A stretch of 64,000 nucleotides of DNA from a virus, in the IMG/VR virus record IMGVR_UViG_3300008050_000001, positions 1 through 64,000 of that record, one strand, 5' to 3'. Shown piece by piece: positions 4,922 to 61,213 of the stretch; the first letter of the stretch is position 1, and every line of letters starts with the position of its first letter. Both the position numbers and the translations under genes were made by a program. The notes under the pieces were generated by a model, which saw only the letters and a list, made by a program, of their open reading frames with translations, was not told the DNA's origin and did not search any database.

Positions 4922-6475
4922 ATGGTTAATTTCTATTGGTATCCGACAAGCGGCAATGATGCTGATACATTAGCCAATTGGAATACTACCGCAGGGGGCG
5001 GAGGTTCAGCCCCTGCTGATTTAGCGGCTCTGAAAGCCGGAACTTTGATATTTACTGGTAATACAGACGAAGTTAATTTTAACTTAACTGACTCTGATGG
5101 TATCCATATATTGGAAGATTGGGCTAAATCGGGTCCTGTTGCACACGCTTTTAATTTAGAAGCAAATGTGACTACTAACCACCTTATCCTAAAGGGTGGT
5201 AAAATGGTAGTAGCAGACCCATATACAATTACTGTAGATAGTGCTAATGCGATACAAACGAGCAACGGAACTCTTATTGAGTTCGGAGGTATATTCGGTT
5301 ATTATGGAACTGCGAGAGAAAAATTAACCTTTGATATGAGAAACGGAACTGGTGGTATCCTTCGCTTTGATGATGGTTTATATCCTAATGTGACCGTCAC
5401 AAGTGGTAGTTTTTCTGCCGAACACATCACTACTGCAAGCACTCATGGTAAAGTAGATTTCTACAGTCTTAATTTTACGAGCGGTGCATTATTGACTGAA
5501 ACAAGCGCGGCTTCATATTCTAGCAACGATAGTGATAAATCATTCTATTTAGCAACCAGCGAACTCACTATAGCAACCGCCTTTTTCCATTGTGGTCTTT
5601 CTCAATGGACTTTTCAAGGAGAAACAAGTGGGTTTTTTGAGATTCCATCTAATGGTAATGTTGAGTATTATGGTAATGCTGGTGCTTTTAATTATTCATG
5701 TCGTTCATTAACAATTGATACTACAGAAAATGGTGCAGGTTCTAAGGCAAGGATTGGGAAAGGAGCAATTCTCAATTTAGAATACTTGAAAATAGAATCA
5801 GGGGCAGTATTAGCCGCAACAGATGGTGGTTTAATTTACTGTTCAAGCGCACCAAATATAGAAGGGTCTTGGGCTTTCAAGCAGACTGCTACTGGTGTTT
5901 ATATCCCCATAGATGATGATATTATGATAGGAACAGGACATGGTGGAACAGGCAAAACAACATTGGGTCTTAGTAATCAAGTTCTTAGAGTAAATAGCGG
6001 TAGAACAGGCTTAGAATGGGCTACTGTGACTTCCGGCGGCCCTACTGGTTCTACAGGTCCTACCGGACCGGCCGGACCAAGTGGGCCGGAAGGCCCCGCT
6101 GGACCAACAGGACCATCCGGTCCTACTGGGTCTACAGGAATAGCAGGGCCAACTGGACCTACTGGTCCTACAGGGCCTACTGGAGCGGATAGCACAGTTG
6201 CTGGCCCTACTGGGGCTACTGGTTCTACAGGGCCAACTGGACCTACTGGTTCAGTAGGACCCACAGGACCAACGGGTCCTTCGGGTCCAACAGGTGTTGC
6301 TGGCCCTACTGGTTCATCAGGGGCTACAGGCTCTACAGGTCCAAGTGGACCAACTGGTCCTACTGGTCCTACTGGAACAGTAGGGGAAGGTATGTCTATT
6401 ATTGATATTGGGTCATTAGTCACAGACGGAACAGATTGTTCGACCATCATATTTGGTGAAATAAACACAAGTTAG
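4922..6475 (+). CDS. Collagen-like virion fibre protein 1
   Basis: 517 aa. Residues 1-330 are a beta-rich domain with many short strands (possible beta-helix). Then comes the phage-fibre linker [21 protein letters not shown]. About residues 370-485 are uninterrupted Gly-X-Y triplets, mostly GPT, GPS and GPA. A short C-terminal head ([10 protein letters not shown] onwards) probably starts trimer folding. It lies immediately before a second, much larger collagen-like gene and near a 2OG-Fe(II) oxygenase. Likely receptor binding or head fibre. Confidence 0.8.
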
Positions 6476-6510: not shown

Positions 6511-12693
<6,183 letters not shown>

Positions 12694-56598: not shown

Positions 56599-56949
56599 GT
56601 CCATGGTTCAAAATCGGCCAACTCACCTGCTTACAGGCGGTTGCCTGACTTGCTCATCTGCCGGTGTGATGTGGCTATGCGGTTGCCTATGTGTAGGTGA
56701 GCGTAGGTGTATAGGCGAAGGTGTCTGCTTAGGTCTGACTAAGCCCGTTGCTATGTGTAGAGGGTGTATCTTGTATCTCAATACAAAGTGATGAGATACG
56801 AAGATTGGATATGTATGCTTAGGTTTACGCCAGTAAATAGCGAGAGCCGGCCCAAAGGTCGTTGTGTTTGTTCGCATGATTGCGAGAGTTGGTTGATTCT
56901 CCCCTACTTGGTGGAATCTTGGCGACAGGGCCATTAGCGGTTGCTAATT

Positions 56950-56984
56950 CCACTATGAATAGAAGTTCCTTCTATACATAGTGG
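56950..56984. repeat. Inverted repeat with TTC triloop
   Basis: Arms of 16 (CCACTATG, one mismatch, ATAGAAG) around TTC. Read on the minus strand the loop is GAA. Confidence 0.7.
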
Positions 56985-56995
56985 GTATGGTTTCT

Positions 56996-57050
56996 TACTT
57001 GGCCGCTTGGTATACTTGGTCGCTTGCACTTGGTATACTTGGTCGCTTGG
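56996..57050. repeat. Three iteron-like direct repeats
   Basis: TACTTGG(C/T)CGCTTG occurs at 56996-57009, 57013-57026 and 57036-57049; a perfect 21-nt duplication covers 57006-57026 and 57029-57049. Confidence 0.7.
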
Positions 57051-57259
57051 TTAGCGCACACGCGCAAACCCTTAATTTATCAAAAATAAATTAGGACTTT
57101 TCCCACGCTTTTTCGCAAGTTCTGATTGTGATATAGTCTTCTCACCGGCTTTGCATTAACCTCGGTTTCAAAGGTTCTTGCTAGCCGGTGCTAGACCGCA
57201 GAGCCGGACATGGGCTTAGTCCACTAAGAGGGTGGCCTAATCCCCCTCTAACGCGCACG

Positions 57260-57284
57260 GAATAGGTATCGAAGATACCTATTC
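57260..57284. repeat. Perfect 11-bp inverted repeat with GAA triloop
   Basis: GAATAGGTATC - GAA - GATACCTATTC. The longest perfect stem in the region, located between the iterons and the gene end at 57398. Confidence 0.75.
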
Positions 57285-57342
57285 GTTGCTAACTGACCTT
57301 GCTTTCGCTAGGGTTCGATTTGAAATGGTTGAATCCACCAAA

Positions 57343-57366
57343 CCGAGAGGGCTTTAGCCCCCTCGG
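57343..57366 (-). terminator. Hairpin downstream of the AAA/VWA operon
   Basis: CCGAGAGGGCT-TT-AGCCCCCTCGG: 11-bp arms with one mismatch, 31 bases after the stop of the minus-strand gene at 57398. No long T tract follows, so termination is tentative; it may instead protect the transcript end. Confidence 0.4.
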
Positions 57367-57397
57367 AATGGCTTACGAATGCCGATTTTGGCCTGAA

Positions 57398-57673
57398 TCA
57401 GGACTCATCCTGAGATAGCAAGTCTACGACTTGGTTTGTGATTGCTTGCATATCCTCATCGGTGATTTCTTCACCACGGTGCATGGCTTCTATCATAGCA
57501 AACGATTCTTCGGTTAGAGCCTGAGAAGGCTCATCCTCAAGACCTTCGTTCTTGTAAAGGCTGTAAAGTAGCACTTTAGCAACGAACTCCCTTGACTCGA
57601 CCTTAGGGTCGAGGATTTGCGAGATTAAGTCAGCAATCATAGCAGTTGGATATGTAATATCATCTTGTAGCAT
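57398..57673 (-). CDS. Small acidic protein of the AAA/VWA operon
   Basis: 91 aa from ATG at 57673, overlapping the VWA-like gene stop (TGATG). Helical and acidic (ADLISQILDPKVESREFVAK, GEEITDEDMQAITNQVVDLL). Translation coupling suggests it works with the upstream ATPase and VWA-like proteins, perhaps as adaptor. No family recognised. Confidence 0.6.
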   Translation of the reverse strand: MLQDDITYPTAMIADLISQILDPKVESREFVAKVLLYSLYKNEGLEDEPSQALTEESFAMIEAMHRGEEITDEDMQAITNQVVDLLSQDES

Positions 57674-58689
57674 CAATACTCACCCCCTGCTTCGCTACCA
57701 TCGGTATAGTGAGCAAGAGCCTCGGTCATCTCGGCAACCATGTGCTTCATGGCGTTCCTTGCTGATATGCTTCCAGCCGGCCAGCCCTTCATTACATGAC
57801 CTCGGTCAAGCCCTATCATCCGTAGGACTTCCGCCTTCTCATCGTCGTTGTAGTCAACATCGGGATAGCCTAGCCCCATTGTGTGGTCAGTTGGGCCTAA
57901 GGCCCTCATCATGGTGAAGATGCCGGTTCTAAAGAACCATGAAGATGAGCCGGAACCCATCAGAGCATCATTGAAGGGGTCCGAAGTGTCCTTCAATTTG
58001 TAGGCGTAGAAGCCATTTCGATAATCGCCACGGTATACACCGTTCCCTCGGTTAGCAATCCACACTTCAAGATTGAAGCCGGCATCACTCAGAGCCTCGG
58101 TAATAGCAACGATAACGGCCATAGCCGCCGCTAGAACATCGGCTCCGACATTACAAGACGCTGAAAGCGGCAAAACAAGAGCGATTGACTCCCTCGGTGC
58201 TTTGCTTCTTACCCTTCGGCGGCCGAATGGTTCACCATTTAGCAAGCGGAAGGCATTGACCTTGCAGGGCATTGACTCCACATTTCTCCAACGCCGAGTA
58301 AACTCGCTTAGGTCTATCTGAGCAATCTCTTTCAGAGCATCTTGCCGGAACTTGACCATCAGGTCAATGTCTGCCTTTCGGAATACTCCGTATTGACCGG
58401 ACATTTTGGCCTCGGTGATGTGCTTCTTGTCGCCTTCAATCCCTTCGGGCCTTCCGACCCAACTAAGGTCAACTTCGTTGGTTAGGGGGTTCTCAGCACC
58501 GGTATACTTGCCGTTGCTAATCGTTTCACTCATCAACCGGAGGTTGTCCGGTCTGAGGAAGTCAGCCACTTGATGGCTCTGATGAGCCACAAAGCAACGG
58601 GCATCGAATACTTCGCTAACGAAGGTCGAAGCCTGATTGACTCTGTTTACCTCGGAGAGGTAGGATTCAACTTCTTGCTTATCCATCAT
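57673..58689 (-). CDS. VWA/CobT-like partner protein with degenerate MIDAS
   Basis: 338 aa. The centre (SIALVLPLSASCNVGADVLAAAMAV) aligns with the first strand and DxSxS loop of CobT-type VWA domains, but the Asp is replaced by Pro (PLSAS). GYPDVDYNDDEKAEVLRMIG resembles the later SDGxP..D..L part. N-terminal half is helical. In cellular systems a VWA protein pairs with a MoxR/CobS AAA+ ATPase; that partner is coded just upstream (35 bases). Metal binding is doubtful; the scaffold role may persist. Confidence 0.6.
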   Translation of the reverse strand: MMDKQEVESYLSEVNRVNQASTFVSEVFDARCFVAHQSHQVADFLRPDNLRLMSETISNGKYTGAENPLTNEVDLSWVGRPEGIEGDKKHITEAKMSGQYGVFRKADIDLMVKFRQDALKEIAQIDLSEFTRRWRNVESMPCKVNAFRLLNGEPFGRRRVRSKAPRESIALVLPLSASCNVGADVLAAAMAVIVAITEALSDAGFNLEVWIANRGNGVYRGDYRNGFYAYKLKDTSDPFNDALMGSGSSSWFFRTGIFTMMRALGPTDHTMGLGYPDVDYNDDEKAEVLRMIGLDRGHVMKGWPAGSISARNAMKHMVAEMTEALAHYTDGSEAGGEY

Positions 58690-58715
58690 TTCACCTCCTT
58701 TCGTAGAAAGGTGAA

Positions 58716-58736
58716 GGAGCCGTCTTAGACGGCCCC
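58716..58736 (-). repeat. Hairpin over the ATPase stop codon
   Basis: GGAGCCGTC-TTA-GACGGCCCC, 9-bp arms with one mismatch. The loop (TTA; minus strand TAA) is the stop codon of the AAA+ gene. It may tune expression of the downstream VWA-like gene. Confidence 0.5.
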
Positions 58737-60455
58737 CTCAACTCTCGATTCAACAACCGTAGGTTCGATGTAGTTCTCGTTTGCATCCATAACTTCGTTA
58801 GCATCAAGGCCAATCATCCGAAGGTCATTCTCATTCCAGTCAGCAAGAGCCTCAAGGAAGGCTTGACGGACTGGGAGTCCGTGGACTTCCGTCATTGCAT
58901 AAGCAACTTGGAGATGCCGAGGGCTAATGATACGCTGAATGTTTGCGTTGTTCATCTTCTCCCTTGCATCAATCAATAGGTTCCGTAGTTCAGCATTGGG
59001 GCAAAAGGACTTCTCAAGTGCCTCATCATATCCCCAGTTCACTATGCCTCCGGCAAATCGGTTCAGAGTAGCACCGTCTAACTGGTTAGCGGCATTGTAA
59101 GTTCGGTTCCCACCATGACCAAAGGTATTAGCGGTGCAAATGAAGACGGAGTCTTCATGGCGGGTTGCTACTGTGCCGTCAGGAAGAGGCCAACTTGAAC
59201 CGGCTATAGCCGCATTTAGAGCAACGGCAGTTCCACTTGCTAATCTGTCGAACTCGTCGAAGACGATGATTCCACCACGCTGATACGCTTCCACGACTTT
59301 TGATTGAGTATATACTGGAAGTCCATCGGAGATGTTTGGAACAGTAGCCCCAGTAATCTCGGTAGGTAGCATCTCTTCATTACATGAAACAATGACTATT
59401 CCAGCATCAGGGTTATCGGCAAAGCCGCCCTCTGCTCTTGGTATCTTTAGCAATGCTCTCAAAATCTGCTCTGCACCGAAGGTCTTTCCACTTCCGGCAG
59501 GGCCTACAAGTAGACTGTTTATTCTGCGGTTCTGAACAAAGGTTCGACAGTTGCGAAGCAGTCTGAGGAACTTGTTGTGTATCATCTCTTCAAAGACTAC
59601 CTCAGGACTCTCAAGAGTCGTTAGCCTTAGTGGGGCTGAGGAAGCAATATCTCTGACCTCTTGGGTAAGTTCGGAGAACTTGGTTGCTAATTCAGCATTG
59701 TGAACTTGGGTGAAGTTCCTTCCCCACTCTCTAAGTGGTGCTTCAATCAGGCCGAAGATAGCAGAACCTTCCGCTGAAATCTGAGGCGTGGCCTTTGGCT
59801 CAGGTGTAGATTCAGGTTGAGGGGTAGGTGTCTTTTCCTCAGGTTGAGGTTCAGGACTTGGCCTACCTTCGGTGTAGTGAGAAGCGAACTCCCTAGGGAA
59901 CTTCCTACCTTCGGTATCAGGCTGATAGCACTCATTGAGTCCGTTAGGAGTTCCATGACCTAGGGTCAAGTTTGCTAGTCGTGGAGTGTATAGACCCTCT
60001 ACGGCATGAGTATAGACAATCAAACGGTTCGCTTCAACTGGATTGCCGGTTGACCTCCGTCTAACCGCGGGAACCCTTCGGTCAGTTATGGCGCAGTCAA
60101 TATGATACCACGCCGTTGCTTTCTTGCTTCCCCTTCGGGGTTGAATCAATACATTGACCACTTCGTGACCTTGCATATCCTCATCACAACAAGGGCAAAG
60201 TGAGGACTTCTCGGCTTTCAGCCGATAGGCCCCACTATACTGACCTCTCATTCGCTCTCTTAGCAACCTTCTATGCGAAGCATCAACCATTCCTAGAGTG
60301 AAAGGAACTGCTGAAAGCAATGTTATTGCTAACTGCACCCAGTCACCACTTAGGGATGGCTCTACCTCGCTAAAGACCGTAGGCAGTAGAGCAAAACCTA
60401 CGGTCAGGGCAATCATCATTATCGGCATCAGGACATTTCGACTTCTCGACTCCAT
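58725..60455 (-). CDS. Membrane-anchored MoxR/CobS-type AAA+ ATPase with zinc finger
   Basis: 576 aa from ATG at 60455. Two hydrophobic helices (about 9-27, 39-57). A Cys/His finger at 87-121 (CPCC..WYHIDC). A Pro/Glu/Thr-rich linker (200-225). AAA+ domain 275-575: Walker A GPAGSGKT (318-325), Walker B GGIIVFDEFDRL (D400, E401), sensor 1 TAN (441-443), Arg-rich LNRF. The closest families are MoxR/CobS-like ATPases that remodel or load metal into partner proteins. Membrane anchor plus finger is unusual. Probably acts at the cell membrane with the VWA-like protein. Confidence 0.75.
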   Translation of the reverse strand: MESRSRNVLMPIMMIALTVGFALLPTVFSEVEPSLSGDWVQLAITLLSAVPFTLGMVDASHRRLLRERMRGQYSGAYRLKAEKSSLCPCCDEDMQGHEVVNVLIQPRRGSKKATAWYHIDCAITDRRVPAVRRRSTGNPVEANRLIVYTHAVEGLYTPRLANLTLGHGTPNGLNECYQPDTEGRKFPREFASHYTEGRPSPEPQPEEKTPTPQPESTPEPKATPQISAEGSAIFGLIEAPLREWGRNFTQVHNAELATKFSELTQEVRDIASSAPLRLTTLESPEVVFEEMIHNKFLRLLRNCRTFVQNRRINSLLVGPAGSGKTFGAEQILRALLKIPRAEGGFADNPDAGIVIVSCNEEMLPTEITGATVPNISDGLPVYTQSKVVEAYQRGGIIVFDEFDRLASGTAVALNAAIAGSSWPLPDGTVATRHEDSVFICTANTFGHGGNRTYNAANQLDGATLNRFAGGIVNWGYDEALEKSFCPNAELRNLLIDAREKMNNANIQRIISPRHLQVAYAMTEVHGLPVRQAFLEALADWNENDLRMIGLDANEVMDANENYIEPTVVESRVEGAV

Positions 60456-60491
60456 CAACCATTCGCGCAGGCACTCGCACTAAAACCTACC

Positions 60492-60505
60492 GTTGCTATA
60501 GCAAC
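60492..60505. repeat. Perfect 14-bp palindrome GTTGCTATAGCAAC
   Basis: Two abutting inverted copies of GTTGCTA, the heptamer over-represented throughout the window, 37 bases upstream of the AAA+ gene start. Confidence 0.75.
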
Positions 60506-60569
60506 TTCATACGCGGTTTTAGGCCATCTCGACTTGACTCAGGTTTAGGGCAACCGAAAAATTATGCTG

Positions 60570-60637
60570 GATTAACTCAGAGTTAATCTGCACACGGATA
60601 TGTTTCAACTGGATAATCAAAGATTATCCATTTGAAA
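60570..60637. repeat. Two adjacent inverted repeats
   Basis: GATTAACTC-A-GAGTTAATC (60570-60588, perfect 9-bp arms) and a second stem 60603-60618/60622-60637 (TTTCAA, one mismatch, TGGATAATC; loop AAA). Confidence 0.75.
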
Positions 60638-60672
60638 TCACACATCACGATTTCTCAGCGCGGTTCCACGCG

Positions 60673-60689
60673 GGTTGCTGAAAGCAACC
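60673..60689. repeat. Inverted repeat GGTTGCT-GAA-AGCAACC
   Basis: Perfect 7-bp arms, GAA triloop, and arms related to the GTTGCTA heptamer. Confidence 0.7.
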
Positions 60690-60867
60690 TTCACACGCAG
60701 AACCATAGGAGAATGCGTCAAGTCCTCCATTTTTCCGAACCACTTAGAGGCGGTATGTGGCTCACGCAAGACCCTGCTCGCGCACATGGGGCTTCTGATG
60801 ACCCTCCTGAGCGTATGTGCGCCGTCTTCGCGCCTAAGTTCATCGGTTTTCGACCCCTTCTCCAATT

Positions 60868-60900
60868 CTACCTCCCTAAAGTCTGACTTTAGGAAGGTAG
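60868..60900. repeat. 33-nt hairpin with 16-bp arms
   Basis: CTACCTCCCTAAAGTC, a single T, then its complement with one mismatch. A strong extruding structure in DNA or RNA. Confidence 0.75.
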
Positions 60901-61120
60901 TAGCCGGACCTAAAAAAGTCCTAATAACTTCGTGACTTACAGTCAATATCTGATTAGAAAGAAGTTGAATTGCTGACCAATCGGCCTCAAATCTAAACAA
61001 CGGGGCAAGGTTTCGCCGTAGAAGCCACCTTGACTATATGTTCTGAGGACTAACCCCCTTCACCTTCGGTGCTTCCTTAAGTCAAAAAAAGTTTGAAGAA
61101 CTCCAACCTTAATAACAAGA

Positions 61121-61137
61121 CTCTATCGAAGATAGAG
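61121..61137. repeat. Inverted repeat CTCTATC-GAA-GATAGAG
   Basis: Perfect 7-bp arms with the recurrent GAA triloop. Confidence 0.65.
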
Positions 61138-61213
61138 AAAAGAGATTAAAATTAGCATTCGGCTCGAATCTCAAACAGCCTACGGCTGAAATTGCCGTTG
61201 CTAAAATCGGAGC

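Follow-up and report, generated by a model that had tools for sequence, protein, structure and literature searches.

Several described systems pair a MoxR-type AAA+ ATPase with a VWA protein, among them NorQ-NorD and CbbQ-CbbO. The VWA domain of NorD plugs the NorQ ring, and its MIDAS, dispensable for binding to the ring, is required for the client (PMC9976466). A finger of the VWA domain inserts into the ring pore; ATP turnover twists NorD, and force reaches the client through NorD (PMC13036017). VWA proteins without the MIDAS Asp are on record in MoxR systems (PMC7159879). Viruses carry such pairs as well. The p618-p892 pair of Acidianus two-tailed virus (ATV) has been studied experimentally and acts as a chaperone in the development of the tail (PMC4124505), and a MoxR-vWA pair of jumbo phages is proposed to act in virion assembly (PMC7824862). 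Archaeal tailed viruses encode cobST, proposed to complete a cobaltochelatase (PMC8651126), and CobS and CobT are also listed for magroviruses (PMC10160649).

The stretch analysed here (the window) comprises 64,000 nucleotides of a 68,614-base IMG/VR virus record (IMGVR_UViG_3300008050_000001). Its minus strand encodes an operon of three coupled genes, A, B and C, at the location given in the original prediction (Table 1). A and B are spaced by 36 nt, B and C overlap by 4 nt, and this arrangement of the open reading frames bears out the predicted coupling. Strong Shine-Dalgarno sequences precede B and C, and none is obvious for A. The record also encodes a tailed-virus terminase, a family-B DNA polymerase, a clamp loader and an ERCC4 nuclease. 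The polymerase is nearest to those of haloarchaeal tailed viruses (~23% identity). No close relative was found among the named phages of the phage collection, and a search of GTDB genomes with the ATPase alignment, as a link to a host, returned no relative. We infer that this is probably a magrovirus-type tailed virus of marine archaea, the hosts of magroviruses being Poseidoniales. Elsewhere, positions 6511-12693 encode a 2060-aa protein with long collagen-like GPTGPTG repeats, and a shorter second one lies at 4922-6475.

Table 1. Features of the A-B-C operon and its surroundings. Positions are those of the window, except for the arrays of sister viruses.
Feature	Position	Strand	Details and evidence
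Gene A: MoxR/CobS/NorQ-type AAA+ ATPase, 577 aa	58725..60458	-	TTG at 60458; relatives share the ATG start at 60455
Predicted membrane helix 1, ~residues 9-28	60375..60434	-	Hydropathy peak 2.1-2.4; AlphaFold2 helix 2-28, low confidence
Predicted membrane helix 2, ~residues 40-58	60285..60341	-	Hydropathy peak ~1.7; alignment
PARP-like zinc finger, C88-x2-C91 ... H119-x2-C122	60093..60197	-	Invariant ligands; profile match to PARP1 zinc fingers
AAA+ core	58812..59597	-	Walker A GPAGSGKT (319-326), Walker B D401-E402, sensor-1 N444, R467, R514, helix-2 insert
Gene B: DUF7192, predicted degenerate VWA co-chaperone, 338 aa	57673..58689	-	Pfam DUF7192; model; NorD VWA top PDB match
PLSAS, equivalent of MIDAS DxSxS, Asp to Pro (P174)	58156..58170	-	hhalign
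Gene C: acidic protein, 92 aa, translationally coupled to B	57398..57676	-	Conservation in 4 viruses
Terminator-like hairpin behind C	57343..57366	-	Alignment; T run follows in L012, L092
Non-coding structured leader upstream of A	60456..61213	-	Fold z = -5.7; compensatory changes
Leader hairpin 1, 15 bp in window, tip TCAGA conserved	60868..60900	-	Both-side changes 9/15 pairs; 100% paired
Leader hairpin 2, GGTTGCT-TTC-AGCAACC (L012: GATATTC-TTTA-GAATATC)	60673..60689	-	
Leader hairpin 3, TGGATAATC-TTT-GATTATCCA	60610..60630	-	Both-side changes 6/13 pairs
Leader hairpin 4, GATTAACT-CTG-AGTTAATC (L012: AAATACCT-GCTA-AGGTATTT)	60570..60588	-	Both-side changes 3/8 pairs
Leader hairpin 5 / palindrome, GTTGCTATAGCAAC (L012: GTCTAGTACTAGAC)	60492..60505	-	Alignment
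Hairpin arrays in terminase-ATPase gap	L103:5144-7443; L098:3783-7737; L107:3111-7530		Perfect hairpins 23; 34; 33

Judged from its sequence, gene A encodes a MoxR/CobS/NorQ-type AAA+ ATPase in which every catalytic motif is present. It matches Pfam AAA_5 (1.1e-13) and phrog_249 (2.4e-32), a family of phage ATPases labelled 'porphyrin biosynthesis'. A profile of 36 relatives matched CobS (1e-21) and CbbQ/NorQ (1e-15) in the PDB, where the large multi-domain midasin scored highest through summed repeats. Within these 36 sequences G319, G322, G324, K325, D401, E402, N444, R467 and R514 are invariant. A fold search of the PDB with the predicted structure returned CbbQ2 (3.3e-12) and NorQ (5.5e-12) at the top. 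Walker A and B, sensor 1, the arginine finger and the sensor 2 residues are present and the best fold match lies in the MoxR clade, so that family, motifs and fold all agree with the class first proposed. One candidate relative, L114, was rejected as a chance DNA-pattern match.

The N-terminus of protein A has two hydropathy peaks (residues ~8-28 and ~40-58), and shuffling the protein gave two such peaks within the first 70 residues in 3 of 5000 cases. The hydropathy of residues 1-60 therefore supports the two membrane helices that the original prediction placed at residues 9-57. A net positive stretch, RRLLRERMR, directly follows the second. Two N-terminal peaks also occur in the viruses L011, L092 and L112, and the L012 ATPase has one clear peak and one at 1.58, the first being weak. 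Across all five carriers of this clade (these four and the window) the hairpin has diverged in sequence and kept a similar hydropathy; no other fetched ATPase has it. The hairpin is thus predicted from hydropathy and conservation, AlphaFold2 giving helices at residues 2-28 and 39-54 with low confidence. A two-helix N-terminal membrane hairpin ahead of an AAA+ motor is also the layout of FtsH, but protein A belongs to the MoxR clade and is without a protease domain.

A long Pro-rich linker and a zinc finger separate the predicted anchor from the motor. The ligands C88, C91, H119 and C122 are invariant down to 35% identity, in keeping with the zinc finger first proposed. Its profile matches the two-finger chain of PARP1 at 1.3e-6 and each single finger weakly, at ~0.15. 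Pfam zf-PARP has no match in the window and one of 0.0075 (17.4 bits, below the cut-off of 39.3) in the relative L025. The ATPases of sister viruses (36-42% identity) keep the zinc ligands and the DUF7192 partner and are without the anchor. In these viruses the terminase is 61-62% identical and the order terminase-ATPase-DUF7192 is retained.

Gene B belongs to Pfam DUF7192 (PF23822, 9e-11, 42.1 bits against a curated cut-off of 27). Its AlphaFold2 model (pLDDT 77, pTM 0.79) supports a degenerate VWA-like fold with moderate statistics. The best Foldseek match in the PDB is the VWA domain of NorD, which is statistically modest (E 0.024, probability 0.77). Among viral models DUF7192 proteins come first, followed by phage CobT/VWA proteins at E ~1e-3. 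The VWA assignment draws on this fold and one hhalign match, because a PDB sequence search with the DUF7192 profile found nothing. That match, of 64 columns only, aligns LPLSASC of B with VDDSGSM in a viral VWA protein that has its MIDAS. A search of the named phages with B by tblastn likewise found nothing, although the family profiles did match. The VWA-like partner of the original prediction is upheld at this level, and the replacement of the MIDAS Asp by Pro is correct but not peculiar to this virus. DxSxS is retained in none of 52 DUF7192 members, and we rejected MIDAS loss as a novelty for this reason. We also rejected B as a direct homolog of CobT: it has neither DxSxS nor a Pfam CobT match, and hhalign to a cyanophage CobT-type protein failed. 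Another viral ATPase (L108:5480-9042) adjoins a VWA protein whose DDSGS site is intact, a MIDAS-bearing contrast to DUF7192.

Gene C encodes the small acidic protein that had been described (21 D+E versus 5 K+R), with no membrane segment and no Pfam or PHROG family match. It is conserved in four viruses at 45-84% identity, and no copy was found outside the anchored clade; sister viruses carry a different ORF after B. The triplet is present in relatives, its absence from which the original prediction had named as a refutation.

The A+B pair itself is widespread. When 80 IMG/VR loci were picked by their ATPase and nothing else, 79 had DUF7192 as its neighbor; these 80 are the best of 136, a choice that favors close relatives. 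Profile drift is not the cause, since the first-round profile already caught nearly all of them. The same holds for seven of eight phage records, and records with the pair include Acinetobacter, crAss-like, Lactobacillus, Staphylococcus, Sinorhizobium and Rhizobium phages. The phage pair of a phrog_249 ATPase and phrog_1909 (DUF7192) is homologous to A+B, adjacent, on the same strand and equally without MIDAS, but it has no membrane hairpin, another third gene and usually no zinc finger. Several of these other phages have replication or nucleotide genes annotated nearby (primase, Holliday junction resolvase, helicase, clamp, kinase). The claim that no described system has this build was therefore too strong. 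Viral MoxR-VWA and CobS-CobT pairs are published and ATPase-DUF7192 pairs are common in phages, so that the pair is not new. Specific to this lineage (the virus and its closest relatives) are just the anchored form and gene C.

NorQ-NorD and CbbQ-CbbO are the best structural matches to A and B, in the AAA+ core and in the VWA-like fold, but NorD retains its MIDAS and acts on a host enzyme, and NorQ/CbbQ have no membrane hairpin. We consider, with a probability of about 60%, that A and B form an ATP-driven remodeling chaperone on the NorQ-NorD/CbbQ-CbbO/CobS-CobT plan, in its DUF7192 form, held at the host membrane and acting on a viral client. The hairpin would sit in the membrane with both its ends and the ATPase in the cytoplasm, holding the ring at the inner face. 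By analogy with NorD on NorQ, B may dock on the ring of A, and ATP turnover would twist or pull B and pass strain to the bound client. With the MIDAS metal ligand lost, B would grip its client without metal bridging, using its N-terminal half, possibly together with gene C. A viral complex of replication, packaging or virion assembly is the most likely client, since phages infecting very different hosts carry the pair, several of them with replication or nucleotide genes annotated beside it, which makes a host respiratory enzyme less likely.

A narrower role in virion maturation is possible but unlikely. A and B would then act specifically on tail or capsid proteins, remodeling them at the membrane ahead of release, as p618-p892 serves tail development in ATV (PMC4124505) and as was proposed for the jumbo-phage MoxR-vWA pair (PMC7824862). 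ATV is likewise an archaeal virus (archaeal being inferred here) with a MoxR ATPase and a VWA partner. It is, however, of an unrelated type. The operon adjoins the terminase, but this gene heads a leftward cluster that also holds replication genes, no virion protein lies directly beside the triplet in the window, and the neighbors in several unrelated phages are those of replication and nucleotide metabolism.

Remodeling of the host envelope or respiratory complexes, or exit from the cell, had been proposed for the triplet. Membrane anchoring of A would also fit a client in the host membrane, and NorQD and RavA-ViaA target membrane or respiratory complexes (PMC9976466; PMC3893208). Yet an anchorless form of the pair is spread over phages of unrelated hosts, and none of our data suggest a host target or point to respiratory complexes, lysis or exit; we regard a role in host remodeling as quite unlikely.

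It is very doubtful that A and B are auxiliary cobalamin genes, a viral CobS-CobT that completes cobaltochelatase with a host CobN, a role that has been proposed in archaeal tailed viruses (PMC8651126), the two genes also being listed for magroviruses (PMC10160649). The pair shares with CobS-CobT and viral cobST a two-gene layout and a CobS-like ATPase, CobS being among its best PDB profile matches. Against this, the model of A fits NorQ/CbbQ best, B lacks MIDAS and any Pfam CobT match, and CobN was not found in the virus record. The same pair also occurs in Staphylococcus phages, and their hosts are not known as cobalamin makers.

The operon is preceded by the hairpin-rich leader of the original prediction, confirmed by its fold z-score (-4.4 in L012) and by compensatory changes. 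Five viruses share conserved hairpins in the 545 nt that precede A. Both sides have changed in 12 of 35 pairs and, for hairpin 1, in 9 of 15, although few sequences from two clades amount to few independent events. Pairing reaches 98-100%, and shifting the partners by 1-3 columns lowers it to 34-50%. Sister viruses have a wider interval here, with 2.3-4.4 kb of hairpin-packed non-coding sequence separating terminase and ATPase. Counting perfect hairpins of at least 8 bp, the arrays hold 23 (L103), 34 (L098) and 33 (L107), a density of 7.5-10 per kb, and many of the loops are TAAA, TTTA or TTC; shuffled sequence gives 0.1-0.4 such hairpins per array, and upstream coding stretches contain 0-4. 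G-U (22) and A-C (21) mismatches are equally common when leader and array hairpins are pooled, so that these counts do not mark the array as coding-strand RNA, and it may act as either RNA or DNA. Neither leader nor arrays match Rfam, and such a dense conserved array between terminase and ATPase is not mentioned in the literature searched.

Five of nine long contigs from this group of viruses (L097, L099, L100, L105, L106) end within the non-coding region upstream of the ATPase, either as assembly breaks at hairpins or as true genome ends. A second hairpin-rich non-coding stretch lies behind C (56938-57397), with the terminator-like hairpin and a GAATAGGTATC-GAA-GATACCTATTC stem. The motif GTTGCTAW occurs 96 times on both strands of the whole window (4.1 expected, sd 2.1) and occupies every reading frame without an in-frame stop. 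The close relatives L011, L095 and L096 share this enrichment; the sister clade does not, and has different 7-8-mers enriched (AATCGCAA, TTCGCAAA). It looks like an iterated DNA motif of the HIP1 or uptake-sequence type.

A DNA-linked role, in which the PARP-like finger binds structured DNA such as the adjoining hairpins and fixes viral DNA at the membrane so that it can be replicated or packaged, would draw on the PARP1-type profile match, on the presence of the finger in clades that also have a hairpin-dense region beside the gene, and on the replication neighbors annotated in other phages. Single-finger matches are weak, however, and most other phage ATPases of the family have no such finger, which leaves this role highly unlikely. 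We give very little credence to a single system of anchored ring and hairpin array, in which the array (reaching 4.4 kb and 33 perfect hairpins in the sister virus L107) would be a replication, packaging or terminus element, bound by the finger and tethering viral DNA to the membrane via the MIDAS-less MoxR-VWA motor.

The membrane-held remodeling chaperone with a viral client is thus our preferred explanation. New here are the predicted membrane hairpin of the ATPase, its PARP-like finger, the link by fold between DUF7192 and NorD, and the hairpin array beside the operon, for which a partial literature search found no earlier description. Despite its wide spread in tailed viruses, the ATPase of the pair is usually annotated as 'porphyrin biosynthesis' and its DUF7192 partner as 'unknown'. 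Recognition of the partner as a NorD-like VWA protein that lacks the metal site speaks against the cobalamin label in common use and opens the way to a direct biochemical test. The anchored form hints at where the machine may work.
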